In this document: positions 3,183 through 46,448 of the stretch, piece by piece
Position numbering within the stretch: the stretch's first letter is position 1
How the letters are laid out: each line of letters begins with the position of its first letter
NCBI GenBank assembly: GCA_028287235.1
Contig: JAQBQB010000023.1
Span: forward strand, 186,001 to 250,000
Reading direction: 5' to 3'
DNA length: 64,000 bases
Source of the DNA: Gemmatimonadota bacterium
GTDB lineage: Bacteria > Gemmatimonadota > Gemmatimonadetes > Gemmatimonadales > Gemmatimonadaceae
Translations under genes and position numbers: made by a program
The notes under the pieces: generated by a model
Database searches by the model: none
Told to the model about the DNA's origin: nothing
What the model saw: only the letters and a program-made list of their open reading frames with translations

Positions 3183-3518
3183 ATGACACTCGACGACTAT
3201 CAGCAGGCTGCGCTGCGCACGATCAACCCCGCCCTCGACGACCGCGATCGCCTGCTCGACGCGAGCGCCGGCCTCGCCGAAGAAGCGGCCGAAGTCCTGG
3301 GCCTGGTGCGCAAACGCACCTTCCAGCAGCGCACGATCGATCCCGCGAAGCTCACCGAAGAGCTGGGCGACGTGCTCTGGTGCCTCGCCGTGACGGCGAG
3401 CTCGCTCGGCCTCTCGCTGTCCGACGTCGCCGAGGCAAATCAAGCGAAGCTGGCGAAGCGCCATCCGGATGGATTCACGCGCGGGCCGGAGAGCTGGTCT
3501 CGGGCGGCGAAGGAGTAG
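3183..3518 (+). CDS. MazG-like nucleotide pyrophosphohydrolase
   Basis: This 111-residue all-alpha NTP pyrophosphohydrolase homologue carries the metal-binding signature of the superfamily: E34xxE37 in LAEEAAEV and E60xxD63 in EELGDVLW. Family members hydrolyse nucleoside triphosphates, often non-canonical ones, to monophosphate and pyrophosphate. It is one-domain length, like the short MazG-related phage and bacterial enzymes rather than the two-domain E. coli MazG. The ATG lies 2 bp after the permease stop, so the genes are probably co-transcribed. Its TAG stop at 3516-3518 is followed on the very next base by a heptamer repeat array. Confidence 0.8.
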   Translation: MTLDDYQQAALRTINPALDDRDRLLDASAGLAEEAAEVLGLVRKRTFQQRTIDPAKLTEELGDVLWCLAVTASSLGLSLSDVAEANQAKLAKRHPDGFTRGPESWSRAAKE

Positions 3519-3957
3519 CGTGGGGCGTGGGGCGTGGGGCGTGGGGCGTGGGGCGTGGGGCGTGGGGCGTGGGGCGTGGGGCGTGGGGCGTGGGGCGAAG
3601 TTACGCTAGCTGTCGCTGCCGGAGAGGTTGTTACGCCGAAAGGCGCATGCCCAAGAAACAAGACGGCACTGGCGACCGACTCGTCGGGCAGGAGTTCCGC
3701 CGCAGCCACTTCCGCACGCGTTGCGCACTAATCCCAAACGCCGATACGGACCAGCGATCCCGCAGTACGCGTTCGGCGAGACGCACTCGCCCAGTAAACG
3801 CCAGCCGTGCGTCTTTGACTTTGCACCCATCACGACCGAGTGAACAGAGCGAACCAACGTATCCGCTAACAGCTAGCTACGCCCCACGCCCCACGCCCCA
3901 CGCCCCACGCCCCACGCCCCACGCCCAACGCCCAACGCCCAACGCCCCACGCCTCAA
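3519..3957. repeat. inverted heptamer-array element A (unit CGTGGGG)
   Basis: The left arm at 3519-3595 is 11 perfect tandem copies of CGTGGGG. The right arm at 3881-3950 has 10 copies in opposite orientation (GCCCCAC, with three GCCCAAC variants), plus one degenerate copy to 3957. Just inside the arms is a further perfect 9-bp inverted match, GCTAGCTGT near 3608 with ACAGCTAGC near 3869, so the pairing extends into the spacer. The spacer of about 285 bp has no convincing gene. The element fills the gap between two convergent genes: the left arm starts right after the mazG-like stop codon, and the last degenerate unit of the right arm contains the stop codon of the ferredoxin reductase gene. 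The G-rich strand fits a four-tract G-quadruplex several times over. Confidence 0.85.
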
Positions 3958-35340: not shown

Positions 35341-36705
35341 ATGGGCAACACGCAACCGACGCCGCCATCCGGCGAGCTTCGGGCGACGGGAACGCTTGAC
35401 ATCAAGGATTCTCGCACCGACAAGACTTACTCCGTTCAGATCCTGCAGGGTGGCCCCGAAGGGGACACCGCCACGCGGGCGATGGACCTTCGCCAGATCA
35501 AGACGTCGCCCGACGAGTTTGGGATGATGACCTACGATCCGGCGTTCATGAATACGGCATCGTGCAAGAGCGCGATCACGTTCATCGACGGCGACAAAGG
35601 AATCCTACGGTATCGTGGGTACCCCATCGAGCAGCTGGCCGAGAAATCGACCTTCCTCGAAGTCGCGTGGCTGCTGCGCAACGGCGAGCTGCCGGCGCAG
35701 CCCGAGTACGACAAGTGGGTGCACGACATCACGTACCACACGTACGTGCACGAGAACATCAAGACGTTCCTGCAGGGCTTCCGCTACGACGCGCATCCGA
35801 TGTCGATGATGTGCTCCGCGGTCGCGGCGCTGTCGTCGTTCTATCCGGAAGCCAAGAACATTCACGATCCGGCATCGCGCGACATTTCCATCATTCGCCT
35901 GCTGGCGAAGATGCCGACGCTCGCCGCGTTCTGTTATCGCCACAGCAAGGGCCTGCCGTTCATCTACCCCGACAACGACCTGAGCTACACCGAGAATTTC
36001 CTCTCGATGGTGGCGCGCATGTCGGAGCCGAAGTACGAGGCGAACCCGATCTTCGTGAAGGCGCTGGAGATTCTGTTCATCCTCCACGCGGACCACGAGC
36101 AGAACTGCTCGACGAGCGCGGTGCGCGCCATCGGGTCCTCGCAGGTCGATCCCTTCTCGGCCATCGCCGGCGGCGTGGCGGCGCTCTACGGTCCGCTGCA
36201 CGGCGGCGCGAACGAGCAGGTGCTGCGCATGATCGCCGAGATCGGCGATCCGAAGAACGTGCCCAAGTTCATCGACGAGGTGAAGGGCGGAAAGGGCAGC
36301 AAGCTGATGGGCTTTGGCCACCGCGTGTACAAGAGCTACGACCCGCGCGCCAAGATCGTGAAGAAGCTGGCCGACGAAGTGTTCAAGGTCGTGGGCGTGG
36401 ACAAGGATCTCGAGATTGCGCTCAAGCTCGAGGAAGCGGCGTTGAACGACGAGTACTTCGTGTCGCGGAAGCTCTACCCGAACGTGGACTTCTACACGGG
36501 CTTGATCTACCGCTCGATGGCGTTCCCCACGGACTTCTTCACCGTGCTGTTCGCGGTGGCGCGTACGTCGGGCTGGCTGGCGCAGTGGGAAGAGATGCTC
36601 AACGACAAGGAGCAGAAGATCGCTCGTCCGCGGCAGATCTACGTGGGCTATGGCGAGCGGCCGTTCGCGAGCAAGCTGACGGATCGGTTTCCCAAGGCGA
36701 AGTAG
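35341..36705 (+). CDS. gltA: citrate synthase
   Basis: This 454-residue type-II-like citrate synthase condenses acetyl-CoA and oxaloacetate to enter the TCA cycle. The catalytic residues are visible: His287 in GPLHGGANEQ, His327 in GFGHRVYK and Asp383 in LYPNVDFYTG. The N-terminal region with IDGDKGILRYRGYPIEQLAE is standard. ATG at 35341 is preferred over GTG at 35335 given GGGAG upstream. The stop TAG at 36703-36705 is followed at once by the CGTGGGG array of element B. Other TCA genes are not adjacent. Confidence 0.95.
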   Translation: MGNTQPTPPSGELRATGTLDIKDSRTDKTYSVQILQGGPEGDTATRAMDLRQIKTSPDEFGMMTYDPAFMNTASCKSAITFIDGDKGILRYRGYPIEQLAEKSTFLEVAWLLRNGELPAQPEYDKWVHDITYHTYVHENIKTFLQGFRYDAHPMSMMCSAVAALSSFYPEAKNIHDPASRDISIIRLLAKMPTLAAFCYRHSKGLPFIYPDNDLSYTENFLSMVARMSEPKYEANPIFVKALEILFILHADHEQNCSTSAVRAIGSSQVDPFSAIAGGVAALYGPLHGGANEQVLRMIAEIGDPKNVPKFIDEVKGGKGSKLMGFGHRVYKSYDPRAKIVKKLADEVFKVVGVDKDLEIALKLEEAALNDEYFVSRKLYPNVDFYTGLIYRSMAFPTDFFTVLFAVARTSGWLAQWEEMLNDKEQKIARPRQIYVGYGERPFASKLTDRFPKAK

Positions 36706-36787
36706 CGTGGGGCGTGGGGCGTGGGGCGTGGGGCGTGGGGCGTGGGGCGATGACTACGCGCCCCACGCCCCACGGCCAACGCTCAAC
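36706..36787. repeat. inverted heptamer-array element B (unit CGTGGGG)
   Basis: The left arm at 36706-36747 has six perfect copies of CGTGGGG. A short loop (36748-36759) separates it from a right arm of two perfect GCCCCAC copies (36760-36773) and two degenerate ones (to 36787). It is a compact version of element A, again between convergent genes. It begins on the base after the gltA stop codon, and its right arm encodes the last residues of the EVE-domain protein. The hairpin could act as a two-way terminator. Confidence 0.85.
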
Positions 36788-37239
36788 GCCTGCACGATCT
36801 CCCATTCCTTCGCCGTGACCGGCTGAGCTGACAGCCGGCCGATCTTGATCAGGGCCATGTTCTCGAGGCCCTTGGTCTTTTTCAGCTCGTCGAGCGACAG
36901 CGGCCGCTTCAGCCGCTCGACACCCCGCAAGTCCACCATGAACCAGGTGGGCGCGTCCGCCTTGCTCTTGGGATCGAAGTGCGGGTCCTTTGGATCGAGC
37001 GCCGTGGGGTCGGGGTACGCCTCGCGGACCACCTCGGCCACTCCCACCACCGCCGCTGGATTGGCGTTCGAGTGGTAGAAGAAGACGAGATCGCCCTTCT
37101 TCATGGCGCGGAGATGATTTCGCGCCGCGTAATTGCGAATGCCGTCCCAGTGCGTCGTCTTCTTGGGCAGCGCGAGCAGGTCGTCGAACGAGAACACCTC
37201 GGGCTCGGACTTTACGAGCCAGTATTGGCGGTCTGGCAT
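36754..37239 (-). CDS. EVE-domain protein with repeat-encoded C-terminus
   Basis: This 161-residue protein is an EVE (PUA-like, DUF55) domain from near the start: YWLVKSEPEVFSFDDLL, HWDGIRNYAARNHLRAMKKGDLVFFYHSN, then PTWFMVDLRGVERLKRPLSLDELK. EVE domains bind modified DNA or RNA bases and are found in thymocyte nuclear protein 1 and in restriction-like contexts. The last nine residues (SVGRGAWGA) are encoded by the right arm of repeat element B, so the original stop codon seems to have been replaced by repeat sequence. No methylase or nuclease partner is adjacent. Confidence 0.88.
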   Translation of the reverse strand: MPDRQYWLVKSEPEVFSFDDLLALPKKTTHWDGIRNYAARNHLRAMKKGDLVFFYHSNANPAAVVGVAEVVREAYPDPTALDPKDPHFDPKSKADAPTWFMVDLRGVERLKRPLSLDELKKTKGLENMALIKIGRLSAQPVTAKEWEIVQALSVGRGAWGA

Positions 37240-40221: not shown

Positions 40222-40644
40222 ATGACGAAGATTTTGTTGGTGGGCACGGAGCTGGCGCTCCTGGAAGGATTGTCGCAATCGCTCGCCAGTGCCGGGTTCA
40301 CCCCGCAGGTCGCCCAAACGCTGCATGAAGCTCGCGAGCTCGCGCTGCAGAGTCCTCCACTCGTCGCCGTCGTCAGCCGCGTGCTGGCCGCGGCCGCAAG
40401 CGGCGAAGCGCTGAGCATTCCGCTGGCAGCCGGCGGCGCGCTGCTGCTGTATCGCTCCGTCGGGAGCCTGCTCGTCACGCTCTCTCCCACGATGCAGCGC
40501 GCGGTGCTGGCGGATCTCACGCTACCCCTCGAGCGAAACCGCCTGATGGCGCTCGTGCAGTATGTCGGAGACCGGCTCAAGGTCACCGGGCGGGGACGGA
40601 CGAGCGGAGAAAACGAGAGCGTGCCGCCCGAAAGCAGGGTTTAG
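40222..40644 (+). CDS. degenerate receiver-domain protein (pseudo-receiver)
   Basis: This 140-residue protein starts like a response-regulator receiver (TKILLVGTELALLEGLSQSLASAGFTPQVAQTLHEARELALQSPP). The acidic pair that binds Mg2+ is missing (VGTELA rather than VDDD), and the strand that normally ends in the phospho-acceptor Asp reads LVAVVSR. Phosphorylation is therefore unlikely. It could be a protein-interaction module. The C-terminal 20 residues are polar and look unstructured. The stop codon falls inside the first G-rich heptamer of element D, so the final residues may have been changed by the repeat. Confidence 0.65.
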   Translation: MTKILLVGTELALLEGLSQSLASAGFTPQVAQTLHEARELALQSPPLVAVVSRVLAAAASGEALSIPLAAGGALLLYRSVGSLLVTLSPTMQRAVLADLTLPLERNRLMALVQYVGDRLKVTGRGRTSGENESVPPESRV

Positions 40645-40805
40645 GGTATTGGGTATAGGGTTTAGGGAAGGTGTGCGGGCGCGCCGTGGGCGCGCCCGCT
40701 TCGTTAGATGGCCTTTCTCGGTCCATCCATCAAGTCGCGCCGCAGGCGCGACGTACCTCCCCTAAACCCTGGACCCCGGCCCCTAGCCCCCGGTATCGGG
40801 GGCCC
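40633..40805. repeat. inverted heptamer element D (unit GGGTTTA) with internal hairpins
   Basis: The left arm (about 40637-40667) is read as GGGTTTA, GGGTATT, GGGTATA, GGGTTTA, GGG. The right arm (about 40758-40791), read on the minus strand, is GGGTTTA preceded by GGGTCCA, GGGGCCG and GGGGGCTA-like units, also about 7 bp apart. Between them are two perfect hairpins, GCGGGCGCGCC with GGCGCGCCCGC (about 40676-40700) and GTCGCGCC with GGCGCGAC (about 40734-40752). GCCCCCG at 40786-40792 pairs with CGGGGGC at 40797-40803. The left arm supplies the stop codon of the pseudo-receiver gene. The layout matches elements A-C but the unit differs. Confidence 0.7.
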
Positions 40806-40854
40806 TCTTCTCTGACCGTCCGCCCGCTATTAAGCTTCTGGTTACATCCGAGTT

Positions 40855-40906
40855 CGTGGCGATTTCAGGCAACTTGCGGCCACGTTAAATATTTCGCTAA
40901 AGCGCC
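40855..40906 (+). promoter_or_regulatory. candidate SAM-II-like riboswitch upstream of metH
   Basis: A 6-bp stem P1 (CGTGGC at 40855-40860 with GCCACG at 40879-40884) is followed by TTAAAT and GCTAAAGC, the order seen in SAM-II riboswitches. The P1 loop opens with GATTTCA, like the GATTT of SAM-II. Two pseudoknot helices form at the expected places: GCG 40876-40878 with CGC 40895-40897, and GGC 40868-40870 with GCC 40904-40906, with the six bases TAAAGC between them. SAM-II elements bind S-adenosylmethionine and reduce expression of methionine genes. An alternative hairpin (AAGCGC 40900-40905 with GCGCTT 40914-40919) would exclude the pseudoknot, and a T6 run follows at 40932. The metH ATG is at 40954. 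Confidence 0.65.
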
Positions 40907-40953
40907 GGCCCCAGCGCTTGCGTTGTGGGCATTTTTTCTATTCCGGCCTAACG

Positions 40954-43900
40954 ATGTCCGAAACGACCCTTCCGTATCCCGTCGCAGCACCGTCCTCGAA
41001 CGACACGTCGCCGAGCGCGTATCTGAGCGCCCTTGCCGACCGGGTCCTCGTGTACGACGGCGCGATGGGAACGAGCATCCAGCGCTTTCACCCCACCCCG
41101 GACGACTTCGGCGGAAAGTCGCTCGAGGGCTGCAACGACGTCCTCGTGCTCACGCGGCCCGACATCATCGGCGCGATCCACGAGTCGTTCCTTGCGGTGG
41201 GCTGCGACGTCGTCGAGACGTGCACCTTCCAGTCGACGCCGCACCGGCTGCGCGAATGGGGCATCGAGGAAAAGACCGCGGAGCTGAACATCGCCGCCGC
41301 GCGGTTGGCCCGCGCCGCCTGCGACAAGTATTCCACGCCCGACAAGCCACGCTTCGTCGCCGGCTCGATCGGACCCACCGGCATGCTGCTGTCGAGCAGC
41401 GATCCGGTGCTGTCGAAGACCACGTTCGCGGAGCTCGAGGAGAACTACTACATCCAGGCGAAGTATCTCGTCGAAGGCGGCGTCGACGTGCTGCTCGTCG
41501 AGACGGCGCAGGACATCCTCGAGATGAAGGCTGCCGTCGCCGGCTTCGAGCGGCTGTTCGCCGAGATCGGACATCGCGTGGCGGTTCAGGCGCAGGTCAC
41601 GCTCGACACGAGCGGACGCATGCTGCTCGGCACCGACATCGCGAGCGCGATGACGACGCTCGAGGCGCTGCGCGTCGACGTCATCGGGTTGAATTGCTCG
41701 ACGGGGCCCGAGCACATGCGCGAGCCGATCCGCTTCCTCGCGGAAAGCTCCACGCGGCCGGTGTCGTGTATTCCGAACGCCGGTCTGCCGTTGAACACGG
41801 GAACGGGCGACGCGGTCTATCCGCTCGAGCCGGTGCCGATGGCCGAAATGCTCGGCGAGTTCGTCGAGAAGTTCGGCGTGCGCATCGTGGGCGGGTGTTG
41901 CGGCACGACGCCGGATCATCTGGCGGCGATTGTCAAACGCGTGGGGCGTGGAGCGTTGGGCGTTGGGCGCGATGGCGACTCACTGCCTATGCCCCACGCC
42001 TCACGCCCCACGCCCAACGCCCCACGCCCAACGCCCCACGCCGGCTCGACTCGCGGGTCCAAGATTCCCCGCGCCTCGTCGGCCATGCGCGCCACCGACT
42101 TCGACCAGAACCCCAAGCCGCTGCTCATCGGCGAGCGCGTGAACGCGCAGGGCTCGCGGAAAGTGAAGCGTCTGCTCCTGGCCGAGGACTACGAGGGCAT
42201 CTCGGACGTAGCGCGCGAGCAGGTGGAGTCGGGCGCGCACGTGCTCGACGTCTGCGTGGCCGTCACCGAGCGCGGCGACGAAGCGGAGCAGATGGCGAAG
42301 GTCGTCAAGCTGCTCTCGATGACCGTCGACACGCCGATCATGATCGACTCCACCGAGCCGGCCGTGATTCAACGGGCACTCGAAGCGATTCCGGGGCGCG
42401 CGATCATCAACTCCATCAACATGGAGAATGGGCGCGAGCGCATCGACGCCGTGGTGCCGCTCGCCAAGAAGCATGGCGCGGCGCTCGTCGCGCTCACGAT
42501 CGACCCGATCGGCATGGCCAAGACGCGCGAGCGGAAGCTCGAGATCGCGAAGAAGATTTACGACATCGTCGTGCACGAGTATGGGCTCAAGCCGGAAGAT
42601 CTGATCTATGACGATCTGACCTTCACGCTCGCGACCGGCGATGCCGAATGGATCGACTCCGCCGTGGAGACGATCGAAGGCATTCGCCTCATCAAGCGCG
42701 AGCTGCCGGGCGTCTTCACGAGCCTCGGCGTGTCGAACGTGAGCTTCGGACTCAATCCGGAAGCGCGCGGCGTGCTCAACTCGGTGTTCCTGCATCACTG
42801 CGTCGAAGCGGGCCTCGACATGGCGATCGTGAACCCCGCGCACGTGCAGCCGTACGCCGAGATTCCGGACGAAGAGCGCGCGCTCGCCGACGACCTCGTC
42901 TTCAATCGCCGGCCCGACGCGCTGCAACACTTCATCGAGCGCTTCGATGGACGCGGCGCCGGCGCGGCGCGCGAAGTCGAAAAGGAAGATCCCACCGCGG
43001 GCATGACCGCCGATCAGAAAGTGCACTGGATGGTCGTGCACCGAAAGAAAGAGGGCATCGAGGCGGCGCTCGACGAGGCCGGCGTGCGCGAGCAGCCGGT
43101 GCGCGTGCTCAACGAGGTGCTGCTGCCCGCGATGAAGGAGGTCGGCGACAAGTTCGGCGCGGGCGAGCTGATTCTGCCCTTCGTGCTGCAATCGGCCGAA
43201 GCGATGAAAAAAGCGGTGAAGCACCTCGAGCAGTTCCTGGAGCGCGCCGAGGGCTATACCAAAGGACGCGTCGTGCTCGCGACGGTGTACGGCGACGTGC
43301 ACGACATCGGCAAGTCGCTCGTCAACACGATTCTCTCGAACAACGGCTACACCGTGTTCGACTTGGGCAAGCAGGTGCCGGTGAACACGATCATCGAGAA
43401 GGCGCTCGAGGTGAACGCCGACGCGATCGGTCTGTCGGCGCTGCTCGTCTCGACGTCGAAGCAGATGCCGTTGTGCGTGCAGGAGCTCGACCGGCGCGGC
43501 ATTCACATTCCGGTGCTCATCGGCGGCGCGGCGATCAACCGCCGCTTCGGCCGGCGCGCGTTGTACGTGGAAGGCGAGCGCGCGTACGACTCGGGTGTGT
43601 TCTACTGCAAGGACGCGTTCGAGGGGCTCGACACGATGGACAAGCTCCAGGATGTCGAGGGTCGTTCCGCGTACATCGGCAAACTCCTCGAGGATGCGCG
43701 CAACGACAAATTCCTGCACGCTAACGTGGGCAAAGACATGTCGTCGGGCACGTCCGACGGAAAGCGCAGCGAGGTCTCCGCGGACAATCCGGTGCCGAGC
43801 TCGCCCTTCTTCGGCACGCGCACGCTCACGGACATTCCGCTCGACGAAGTGTTCGCGCTGCTCGACCTCGACGAGCTCTATCGCCTGCAGTGGGGCGGTC

Positions 43901-44574
43901 GCGGCTCCGGTCCGGAATACGAAGCGACGGTGAAGAACGAGTTCGAGCCCACGCTCGCGCGCCTCAAGGAATCGGCGAAGCGCGAAAGGTGGCTGCAGCC
44001 AAAGGCCATCTATGGCTTGTTCCCCGTGCAGACACTGGGGAACGATCTCATCGTCTACGATCCCGACGCCTACAAGGCCGACGAAACGAAGACGGAGATC
44101 GGCCGCTTTCACTTCCCTCGTCAGGAAGATCGCGAGCGCTTGTGCATCGCCGACTACTTCCGCGCGGTGGAGACGGGCGACGTCGATGTCGTCGCGCTCC
44201 AGATCGTGACCGTGGGAGATGCCGCGTCGGAGAAGTTCCAGACGCTGCAATCCGCGAACGAGTACACCGAGGCGTTCTACGTCCACGGGCTCGGCGTGGA
44301 GACGGCCGAAGCGGTCGCCGAATGGATGCATCGCAAGATCCGCCACGACCTGGGCGTGCCGGCCGGACAGGGCAAGCGATATTCGTGGGGCTACGGCGCG
44401 TGTCCCGACCTCGAGGATCACGCGCAGGTGTTCAAGCTGTTGCCGGCCGAGCGCGAGCTCGGCATGCAGATGACCTCGTCGTTCCAACTCATGCCCGAAC
44501 AGAGCACCGCGGCGATCATCGTCCATCACCCGCAGGCGAAGTACTACGCCGTGCGCGCCGAGACCAGCCGATGA
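40954..44574 (+). CDS. metH: cobalamin-dependent methionine synthase with a repeat-encoded linker
   Basis: This full-length MetH of 1206 residues methylates homocysteine using methyl-THF through methylcobalamin. Domains in order: homocysteine/Zn domain (about 20-328, with NCS and GGCCGTTPDH ligands), pterin domain (about 370-640, LLIGERVNAQGS), cap and B12 domain (about 660-910, with lower-ligand His783 in YGDVHDIGKS), and the SAM-dependent reactivation domain (about 930-1206, ending KRYSWGYGACPDLEDH and AKYYAV). Residues 329-363, between the first two domains, are encoded by an inverted CGTGGGG array and read as low-complexity GRGALGVGR and RPTPNAPRPTPHA. ATG at 40954 is the start. The stop overlaps the next gene (ATGA). 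Confidence 0.95.
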   Translation: MSETTLPYPVAAPSSNDTSPSAYLSALADRVLVYDGAMGTSIQRFHPTPDDFGGKSLEGCNDVLVLTRPDIIGAIHESFLAVGCDVVETCTFQSTPHRLREWGIEEKTAELNIAAARLARAACDKYSTPDKPRFVAGSIGPTGMLLSSSDPVLSKTTFAELEENYYIQAKYLVEGGVDVLLVETAQDILEMKAAVAGFERLFAEIGHRVAVQAQVTLDTSGRMLLGTDIASAMTTLEALRVDVIGLNCSTGPEHMREPIRFLAESSTRPVSCIPNAGLPLNTGTGDAVYPLEPVPMAEMLGEFVEKFGVRIVGGCCGTTPDHLAAIVKRVGRGALGVGRDGDSLPMPHASRPTPNAPRPTPHAGSTRGSKIPRASSAMRATDFDQNPKPLLIGERVNAQGSRKVKRLLLAEDYEGISDVAREQVESGAHVLDVCVAVTERGDEAEQMAKVVKLLSMTVDTPIMIDSTEPAVIQRALEAIPGRAIINSINMENGRERIDAVVPLAKKHGAALVALTIDPIGMAKTRERKLEIAKKIYDIVVHEYGLKPEDLIYDDLTFTLATGDAEWIDSAVETIEGIRLIKRELPGVFTSLGVSNVSFGLNPEARGVLNSVFLHHCVEAGLDMAIVNPAHVQPYAEIPDEERALADDLVFNRRPDALQHFIERFDGRGAGAAREVEKEDPTAGMTADQKVHWMVVHRKKEGIEAALDEAGVREQPVRVLNEVLLPAMKEVGDKFGAGELILPFVLQSAEAMKKAVKHLEQFLERAEGYTKGRVVLATVYGDVHDIGKSLVNTILSNNGYTVFDLGKQVPVNTIIEKALEVNADAIGLSALLVSTSKQMPLCVQELDRRGIHIPVLIGGAAINRRFGRRALYVEGERAYDSGVFYCKDAFEGLDTMDKLQDVEGRSAYIGKLLEDARNDKFLHANVGKDMSSGTSDGKRSEVSADNPVPSSPFFGTRTLTDIPLDEVFALLDLDELYRLQWGGRGSGPEYEATVKNEFEPTLARLKESAKRERWLQPKAIYGLFPVQTLGNDLIVYDPDAYKADETKTEIGRFHFPRQEDRERLCIADYFRAVETGDVDVVALQIVTVGDAASEKFQTLQSANEYTEAFYVHGLGVETAEAVAEWMHRKIRHDLGVPAGQGKRYSWGYGACPDLEDHAQVFKLLPAERELGMQMTSSFQLMPEQSTAAIIVHHPQAKYYAVRAETSR
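41940..42042. repeat. inverted heptamer-array element C inside metH
   Basis: The left arm at 41940-41967 has four units (one perfect CGTGGGG, then CGTGGAG and two CGTTGGG). A 23-bp loop follows, then a right arm of seven units at 41991-42039 (GCCCCAC, with GCCTCAC and GCCCAAC variants). The metH frame reads through all of it without a stop. Because the unit is 7 bp, three units make a 21-bp, seven-residue period in the protein. Confidence 0.85.
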
Positions 44575-46448
44575 CGACGAAACTGGACCGCCTGCTCGAC
44601 CCACACGCCATCATCATGTTCGACGGCGCGATGGGCACGATGCTGTACAGCAAGGGCGTGTTCATCAACCAGTGCTACGACGAGCTGAATCTCCGCGCGC
44701 CGGACATGGTGCGCGACATTCACAAGCAGTACGTCGATGCCGGCGCCGACGTCATCGAGACGAACAGCTTCGGCGCGAACCGCCTCAAGCTCACGCAGCA
44801 TGGACTGCAGGAGCAGGTGCTCGAGCTGAATCGAGCCGCGGCCAAGCTGGCGCGCGAAGCGGCGGGCGATCGCGCACTCGTCGCGGGCGCCGTTGGCCCG
44901 CTCGGCGTTCGGCTCGAGCCGTACGGCCCCACGAGCAAGGACGAGGCGTGCGCCATCTTCCGCGAGCAGATGGAAGGGCTCGTCGACGGCGGGGTGGACT
45001 GCTTCATTCTCGAGACGTTCGGCGACCTCGAGGAGATCGAGCAGGCCATCCGCGCCGCGCGCTCCGTGGCGCCCGACATGCCGATCATCGCGCAGATGAC
45101 GATCGGCGCCGACTGCCTCACGCCCTACGGCGCGAGTCCCGAAGACGTCGTGCGCGAGCTCGACGCGTGGGGCGCCGACGTGATCGGTCTCAATTGCTCG
45201 GTGGGCCCGCAAACGATTCTCGATTGCATCGAGAAGATGGCGCCGCAGACGCGCCGCAAGCTGAGCGCGCAGCCGAACGCCGGCATGCCGCGCGACGTCG
45301 GCGGCCGCAGCTTTTACATGGCGAGCCCCGAGTACATGGCGACGTACGCGCGCCACCTCGTACAGGCGGGCGCAAAGATCGTGGGCGGCTGCTGCGGCAC
45401 GACGCCCGACCACATCCACGCGATGGTCGAGGGCATTCGTCCGCTCGCGCCGCGTCTCGAGAACATGGCGACGGTGTTCGCCGGTCCGGACCGCCGCGCG
45501 ACCGGCGCGGTCGGCGCCACCGAGGTCCGCGCCAAGGAAGGCGTGGAGCCCGTGCCCTTCGCCGAGCGCTCGCGCTGGGCGGGGAAGCTGGCGCGCGGAC
45601 AGTTCGTCACGTCGGTGGAGATCGTACCGCCGCGCGGGGTGGACGCCACGCGCATGCTCGCCGACACCGCGCGCCTCAAGACGGCCGGCGTCGACGCGGT
45701 GAACGTCCCCGACGGCCCGCGCGCGCAAAGCCGCATGGGCGCGCTCATGACGAGCGTGCTGATCGAGCAGCAGGTGGGCATCGAGACGGTGACGCACTAC
45801 GCCTGCCGCGACCGCAACCTGCTGGGCATGCTCAGCGACTTGCTGGGTGCGTCGGCCGTGGGGCTTCGCAATCTGCTCGTCATCACCGGCGACCCGCCGA
45901 AGATGGGCCCCTACCCCGACGCCACGGCGGTGTTCGACGTCGACGCGATCGGCTTGACGAACCTCGTCAGCAACCTGAATCGCGGGCTCGATCCCGGCGG
46001 CAACGCCATCGGACAGCCCACGCGCTACGCCATCGGCGTTGGCGTGAATCCGGTTGCGATCGATCCGGGCCACGAGCTCCGCCGCTTCGAGTGGAAGGTG
46101 GAAGCGGGCGCCGAATACGCGATCACGCAGCCGGTGTTCGACCCGAGCCAGCTCGAGGCGTTCTTCACCCGCATCGGCAGCGATCACATTCCCATCATCG
46201 CGGGCATCTGGCCGCTGGTGTCCGTGCGCAACGCGGAGTTCCTTGCCAACGAAGTGCCCGGCGTCGAAGTGCCCGATGCGATCATCGCGCGGATGCGGAA
46301 GGCGAACGACAAGTCGAAGGAGCACGCGGTGGCCGAAGGCATTGCGATCGCGCGCGAGATGCTCGAGCGAATCAAGCCGCTCGTGCAGGGCGTGCAGGTC
46401 TCGGCGCCGTTCGGAAAGGTGGAGTTGGCGTTGCAGGTGTTCGCGTAG
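44571..46448 (+). CDS. bifunctional homocysteine S-methyltransferase / methylenetetrahydrofolate reductase
   Basis: This 625-residue fusion is like Bacillus YitJ. The N-terminal half (about 1-300) is a homocysteine-binding methyltransferase domain with Zn ligands in GLNCSVGP and GGCCGTTPDH. The C-terminal half (about 335-625) is an FAD-dependent MTHFR barrel: GQFVTSVEIVPPRGVD, THYACRDRNLLGMLSDLLG, LLVITGDPPKMGPYPDATAVFDVD and a GAEYAITQPVFDP motif. It would reduce methylene-THF to methyl-THF, feeding the MetH reaction encoded just upstream. The N-terminal domain could act as a second, cobalamin-independent methyltransferase. It starts with an ATGA overlap to metH, so supply and use of methyl-THF are expressed together. 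Confidence 0.92.
   Translation: MTTKLDRLLDPHAIIMFDGAMGTMLYSKGVFINQCYDELNLRAPDMVRDIHKQYVDAGADVIETNSFGANRLKLTQHGLQEQVLELNRAAAKLAREAAGDRALVAGAVGPLGVRLEPYGPTSKDEACAIFREQMEGLVDGGVDCFILETFGDLEEIEQAIRAARSVAPDMPIIAQMTIGADCLTPYGASPEDVVRELDAWGADVIGLNCSVGPQTILDCIEKMAPQTRRKLSAQPNAGMPRDVGGRSFYMASPEYMATYARHLVQAGAKIVGGCCGTTPDHIHAMVEGIRPLAPRLENMATVFAGPDRRATGAVGATEVRAKEGVEPVPFAERSRWAGKLARGQFVTSVEIVPPRGVDATRMLADTARLKTAGVDAVNVPDGPRAQSRMGALMTSVLIEQQVGIETVTHYACRDRNLLGMLSDLLGASAVGLRNLLVITGDPPKMGPYPDATAVFDVDAIGLTNLVSNLNRGLDPGGNAIGQPTRYAIGVGVNPVAIDPGHELRRFEWKVEAGAEYAITQPVFDPSQLEAFFTRIGSDHIPIIAGIWPLVSVRNAEFLANEVPGVEVPDAIIARMRKANDKSKEHAVAEGIAIAREMLERIKPLVQGVQVSAPFGKVELALQVFA

Follow-up and report, generated by a model that had tools for sequence, protein, structure and literature searches.

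RESULTS

The metH gene contains an inverted pair of heptamer arrays between two domains

The window analyzed here is the whole stretch of 64,000 nucleotides, and it lies on a 287-kb contig of a single Gemmatimonadaceae genome of 5.73 Mb (G000), from a soil bacterium. Within the window, an intact metH gene encodes a cobalamin-dependent methionine synthase (Table 1). Its single open reading frame holds all of the metH domains (S-methyl_trans, Pterin_bind, B12-binding_2, B12-binding, and Met_synt_B12), in agreement with the first-pass annotation, which had described the enzyme as otherwise complete. Orthologues in genomes of the same family share 71–85% identity, and the closest named relatives of this metH are likewise Gemmatimonadaceae. 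Immediately 3' of metH lies a gene that, judged from its open reading frame, carries a homocysteine S-methyltransferase-like domain (a partial match) in what seems to be a fusion with a methylenetetrahydrofolate reductase-like region.

Between the homocysteine and pterin domains of metH, two arrays of the heptamer GCGTKGG form an inverted pair that is in frame with the gene. The arms lie within one open reading frame, between S-methyl_trans and Pterin_bind, which bears out the earlier placement of the element at a domain boundary; its extent, previously given as 41940–42042 (103 bp), is now 41939–42042 (104 bp). The left arm reads GCGTGGG, GCGTGGA, GCGTTGG, GCGTTGG, and a closing GCG, and the right arm encodes ...RPTPNAPRPTPHA. 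Since the heptamer contains no stop codon in any frame on either strand, as read from the sequence, and the net length is divisible by three, the frame stays open. The RNA of positions 41925–42060 is predicted to fold into a hairpin of -79.3 kcal/mol (z = -5.3 relative to dinucleotide shuffles).

Table 1. Features of the window discussed in the text
Feature	Coordinates	Strand	Description
Element A	3518–3956	.	Same GCGTKGG family; convergent gene pair, with one arm directly at each gene's stop; ~280 bp unique spacer between the arms
Element B	36705–36789	.	Same GCGTKGG family; array begins within the citrate synthase stop codon, TAG
Second dispersed element	40635–40791		Upstream of metH
SAM-II (SAM_alpha, RF00521) riboswitch	40846–40920		Directly upstream of metH
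metH	40954–44574	+	Cobalamin-dependent methionine synthase, 1206 aa, intact; ATG 40954, stop 44574; Pfam domains, orthologues
Homocysteine S-methyltransferase domain (PF02574)	41047–41943	+	Pfam; terminates at the array
Left arm	41939–41969	+	Period 7, GCGTGGG/GCGTTGG, sense orientation, G-rich (Tandem Repeats Finder)
Loop	41970–41990	+	Unique, 21 bp, CGATGGCGACTCACTGCCTAT; separates the two arms
Right arm	41991–42042	-	Period 7, GCCCCAC, C-rich; CCCACGC as read on + (Tandem Repeats Finder)
Pterin-binding domain (PF00809)	42130–42834	+	Pfam; begins ~88 bp past the array
Gene immediately 3' of metH	44571–46448

The metH element belongs to a dispersed family whose unit appears nearly private to the species

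A 181-bp query matched 83 pieces of the G000 genome, and the perfect trimer GCGTKGGGCGTKGGGCGTKGG occurred 89 times, compared with 0 for the reversed control. One congener has 10 occurrences of this trimer, every one GCGTTGG, and a single genome from another genus has 3; 37 of the 40 genomes scanned have none. As assessed by perfect trimers, the GCGTKGG unit thus appears nearly private to this species. Because of the 83 matches, the 89 trimers against none in the control, and the z-score of the RNA fold, chance is excluded and the metH element is real.

We counted ~39 elements of at least two units in the part of the genome that was covered (1.25 Mb plus the regions around further matches); the two-unit elements on contig C1 at 143019, 185112, and 254046 may be chance occurrences. 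All paired elements (14/14) are convergent (+/-), with the G-rich plus-strand arm coming first. Among the arms counted, 19 have two units, 14 have three, and 7 have four. Arm length differs among copies, and the loops are not common to them: an all-against-all comparison of loops revealed no shared core, with matches confined to short stretches at the flanks of the heptamers. No match to the element was found among plasmids.

Heptamer arrays also lie at the ends of contigs C1, C8, and C16, and genome-wide array counts are likely to be low because arrays break assemblies. Such contig ends show that the arrays trouble assembly, and an assembly or binning artefact might in principle have put the repeat into metH. 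We regard this as extremely improbable, given that the metH copy sits as 104 bp inside a 287-kb contig, with degenerate units, a unique loop, and the frame kept, and that an analogous arrangement is found in independent genomes.

A second dispersed element, upstream of metH (Table 1), is ~150 bp long and has telomere-like heptamer arms (AGGGTTTAGGGTATTGGGTATAGGGTTTAGGG ... CCCTAAACCC) that enclose two internal GC-rich hairpins. In the part of G000 that was read, it has at least about a dozen copies at 70–93% identity; no long match was found in the relatives' loci that were fetched. It looks like a REPIN- or MITE-like element with heptamer arrays as its ends. One copy (C1:84354–84490) falls within a large called gene, on the opposite strand, and this family may enter coding sequence too.

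Most elements are intergenic and adjoin a gene

The positions of 53 arms were compared with G000 genes called by a simple codon-usage script, whose calls are approximate. On this basis, 35 arms are intergenic, 13 lie within called genes, and 5 lie at contig edges, in line with the earlier claim that the same heptamer family occupies both intergenic and coding DNA of this genome. Among G-rich-sense arms downstream of a gene, 21 of 22 begin no more than 7 nt from the stop codon, compared with ~3 expected for random placement in the gap, and 7 of 13 arms are equally close to an antisense start. That is, most elements are intergenic, with a gene adjoining the 5' end of their G-rich strand.

The stop codon is often finished by the array itself, either as TA completed by G or as T completed by GA. 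Specifically, 13 arms supply the final G of a TAG stop, a codon that makes up 31% of all stops. The congener G005 shows the same pattern: several of its arrays, built of the unit GAGAGTG, supply the end of a TGA or TAG stop. Within the window, elements A and B (Table 1) illustrate the arrangement, and the second arm of element B is translated as the C-terminus of a convergent EVE-domain gene. With its array, the G000 citrate synthase (gltA) ends ~7 residues before the version found in relatives. In G005, a different heptamer, GGACCGT, directly follows the citrate synthase gene, and no such array follows it in the congeners G002, G003, and G004.

The metH linker carries different heptamers in different relatives

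We examined 68 distinct metH linkers, which range in length from 43 to 87 residues within the family. Seven of these score for period 7, and the six that are convincing have six different units: GCGTKGG, GAGAGTG, GGGCGAC, GGGAACG, CTCGCAT, and CGCAATC. By comparison, the period-7 signal appears in 0.6% of the control windows drawn from these genes, and any other period is found in at most 1 of the 68 linkers. In four of the five genomes tested (G000, G005, G001, and G015), the unit of the linker is the host's own dispersed and near-exclusive unit. Trimers of that unit number 37 in G005 (GAGAGTG), 37 in G001 (GGGCGAC), and 57 in G015 (CTCGCAT), and they are essentially absent elsewhere. For G032, the linker unit GGGAACG has no perfect trimers in its own genome (77% complete), and its status as a private unit is unconfirmed. 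In addition, the metH linker of the congener G003 holds, at the same place, an in-frame REP-like palindrome (TGTCATCCCGAG...GGATGACA).

These comparisons bear on whether the segment is an old, conserved MetH linker that is repetitive in appearance only. The wide range of linker lengths could be accommodated by such a reading. However, no relative has the GCGTKGG repeat in its metH at the level of either DNA or peptide, their linkers being unrelated or built of other heptamers, and the unit is dispersed across the G000 genome; the comparison refutes the old-linker reading, to which we attach almost no probability, and the objection raised in the first-pass annotation, a linker repeated at DNA level in many metH genes, does not hold. 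Given six linkers with six different heptamers, and a match to the host's own unit in four of five tested genomes, the linker sequences themselves indicate that a permissive linker has been invaded recurrently. The first-pass annotation had further proposed a single tolerated, in-frame insertion. Tolerance and frame hold, but singleness does not, given that the linkers of several relatives were invaded separately and that other G000 genes have in-frame arrays.

A further possibility is that the hairpin or the G-rich tract has a function in metH, for example by slowing the ribosome between domains to aid folding or by controlling expression. The predicted RNA is very stable and is located exactly at the domain boundary, where similar arrays recur. 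Nevertheless, 61 of the 68 linkers, including those of G002 and G004, fall below the period-7 threshold, G003 holds its REP-like palindrome instead, and the same GCGTKGG family is found at many unrelated genes. Since a tolerant site accounts for the recurrence, we consider a functional role improbable.

The array appears mostly to have replaced native linker

The linker is highly variable, and the array-less congeners G002 and G004 stand in here for the pre-insertion sequence of the G000 lineage. The distance from the conserved Arg-Val to Arg-Gly-Ser is 20 residues in G004, 23 in G002, and 36 in G000. While the array encodes ~35 residues, the net gain over the array-less congeners is thus ~13–16, and the gain of about 35 residues that had been attributed to the protein is not borne out. 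As the net gain is so much smaller than the encoded length, we infer from the congeners that the array mostly replaced native linker.

The initial GCGTG of the left arm is itself native sequence, belonging to the Arg-Val codons CGC GTG. Because these codons are identical in G002 and G004, the array starts at a native near-unit. At the matching junction of G005, the Arg codon is AGA, which accounts for 0.9% of Arg codons in that genome and spells G005's own unit.

This coincidence is also what would be expected if replication slippage expanded a near-heptamer at the site itself, a native one that already spells most of the unit, with no copying from elsewhere; polymerase slippage has been offered as the cause of heptamer excess in bacteria (see the discussion in PMC4692102). 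Yet slippage in place does not account for the match, in four of five tested genomes, between the linker unit and the private unit dispersed through the host, an inverted right arm and a unique loop are beyond simple slippage, and single 7-bp steps would break the frame. We therefore judge slippage in place unlikely, although it is the most probable of the alternatives weighed here, and prefer copying of a dispersed repeat.

To place the array in the protein, we used an AlphaFold2 model of the first 640 residues of MetH, built from 44 sequences, with residue 1 set at the Ser that follows the start Met (mean pLDDT, 88.5). Residues 337–365 have pLDDT values below 50 and are flanked by two confident domains, and the array codons correspond to residues 328–362. 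Our model thus predicts that the array codons fall in a disordered segment between two confidently predicted domains. The array is tolerated because this segment is a flexible spacer between two intact domains, and as part of the best explanation, which we hold to be likely as a whole, it would be translated as a disordered Gly/Arg-rich and then Pro/Thr-rich spacer.

Arrays lie in frame within other genes

Array-derived peptides, for example GVGRGAW or RPTPHAQ, appear in further G000 proteins, whose names were read from the translations rather than from database matches. Translated arrays are found in kdsA, ctaG, TrpE, and IspF, and at termini in agmatine deiminase and the EVE-domain protein (both C-terminal) and in a sensor kinase and an aminotransferase (both N-terminal). 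A two-unit array in the PDH-E2 linker is weak evidence. The G000 kdsA is ~7 residues longer than that of G002, corresponding to 21 bp, or three units. In G007, the same kdsA loop carries GGGAATC heptamers as an inverted array, and in G010 it carries other heptamers; the loop of ctaG, which has an array in G000, carries a GGGAAAC palindrome in G003. The in-frame arrays of kdsA (G000, G007, and G010) and ctaG (G000 and G003) sit at variable loops.

DISCUSSION

Altogether, the metH element is probably one copy of a dispersed, near-species-private palindromic repeat that overwrote part of the hypervariable linker between the homocysteine and folate (Hcy-Fol) domains and is close to neutral. We propose that convergent arrays of the G-rich heptamer GCGTKGG spread within the genome and would overwrite existing sequence up to the limit of what a gene tolerates. 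They would usually halt at stop or start codons, and occasionally settle within variable, disordered coding segments when the net change in length is a multiple of three. Either template switching or gene conversion may be the copying step, starting from a native near-unit such as CGC GTG; sequence next to this short match would then be overwritten, with the frame maintained by selection. Both the CGC GTG of G002 and G004 and the AGA of G005 fit copying seeded at short matches. On this account, near-neutrality is the most likely selective status of the metH array.

The closest known parallel is the G-rich heptameric repeats of Xanthomonas and Nostoc, with the unit GGGNATC or GGGGA(C/T)T and a preference for four units (Rehm et al. 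2015, PMC4692102). Those repeats are dispersed and mostly intergenic, with a minority that are intragenic; they form convergent inverted pairs, and the 5' end of their G-rich strand lies near or overlaps the stop of the 5' neighbor (PMC4692102). G-quadruplex formation in vitro is another trait of that family. The G000 arrays resemble them in having 7-nt units in tandem that include a run of at least three Gs (GGGGCGT), in convergent pairing, in stop-codon overlap and orientation, and in being mostly intergenic. They differ in their unit, GCGTKGG, which differs between congeners, and in showing no four-unit preference among the arms counted; for these two reasons, we keep them apart from that family. 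In addition, the in-frame copies in housekeeping enzymes are compared here with relatives and found to be recurrent. GGGARTC trimers are absent from G000, present in G007 and G010, and few in G015; G007 and G010, two other Gemmatimonadaceae genomes, use GGGAATC itself, as in the repeats of Rehm et al.

Other repeats share part of this pattern. As cited in PMC2229807, the Rickettsia palindromic elements form homologous families of 105–146 bp (Ogata et al. 2000, 2002, 2005), and coding palindromes occur also in Wolbachia and M. jannaschii (Ogata et al.; Suyama et al. 2005). They are, like the G000 element, palindromic hairpins that lie between genes and in frame within conserved proteins, apparently tolerated, whereas the G000 element has no conserved sequence beyond the heptamer unit and variable loops, and its arms vary in length. 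The tandem repeats of archaeal Borgs are direct repeats that encode perfect amino-acid repeats, evolve rapidly, and arise independently (PMC9879509). They too give disordered protein regions when in open reading frames and recur at a conserved hotspot, but the G000 unit of 7 bp is no codon multiple and its arms are inverted. The TAACTGA heptamers of Beggiatoaceae are also dispersed 7-nt tandem repeats; they are direct and lie just upstream of start codons (PMC4679880), whereas the G000 arrays are G-rich, often in convergent pairs, and mostly at stop codons. Unlike REP, REPIN, or MITE sequences, the copies in G000 have no conserved core among their loops. We found no heptamer repeats reported for Gemmatimonas in the literature searched. 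Two aspects are new here: the units are private and differ between congeners, and the same coding loops have been occupied more than once.

Many bacteria carry an excess of heptameric repeats. Here, the same linkers can be followed through species with different units, and such comparisons allow direct tests of how the arrays are copied, in which direction (with the G-rich strand meeting gene edges at its 5' end), and at what cost to the protein. More tentatively, a copying process in Gemmatimonadaceae may keep a species-specific heptamer, replace that unit as lineages diverge, and rewrite the same gene edges and coding loops (the metH linker, the kdsA loop, the ctaG loop, and the gltA 3' end); this would be a protein-coding repeat system in which sites persist and sequence turns over. 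These loci offer a natural record, beyond Rickettsia, of non-coding repeats turning into disordered segments of housekeeping enzymes.
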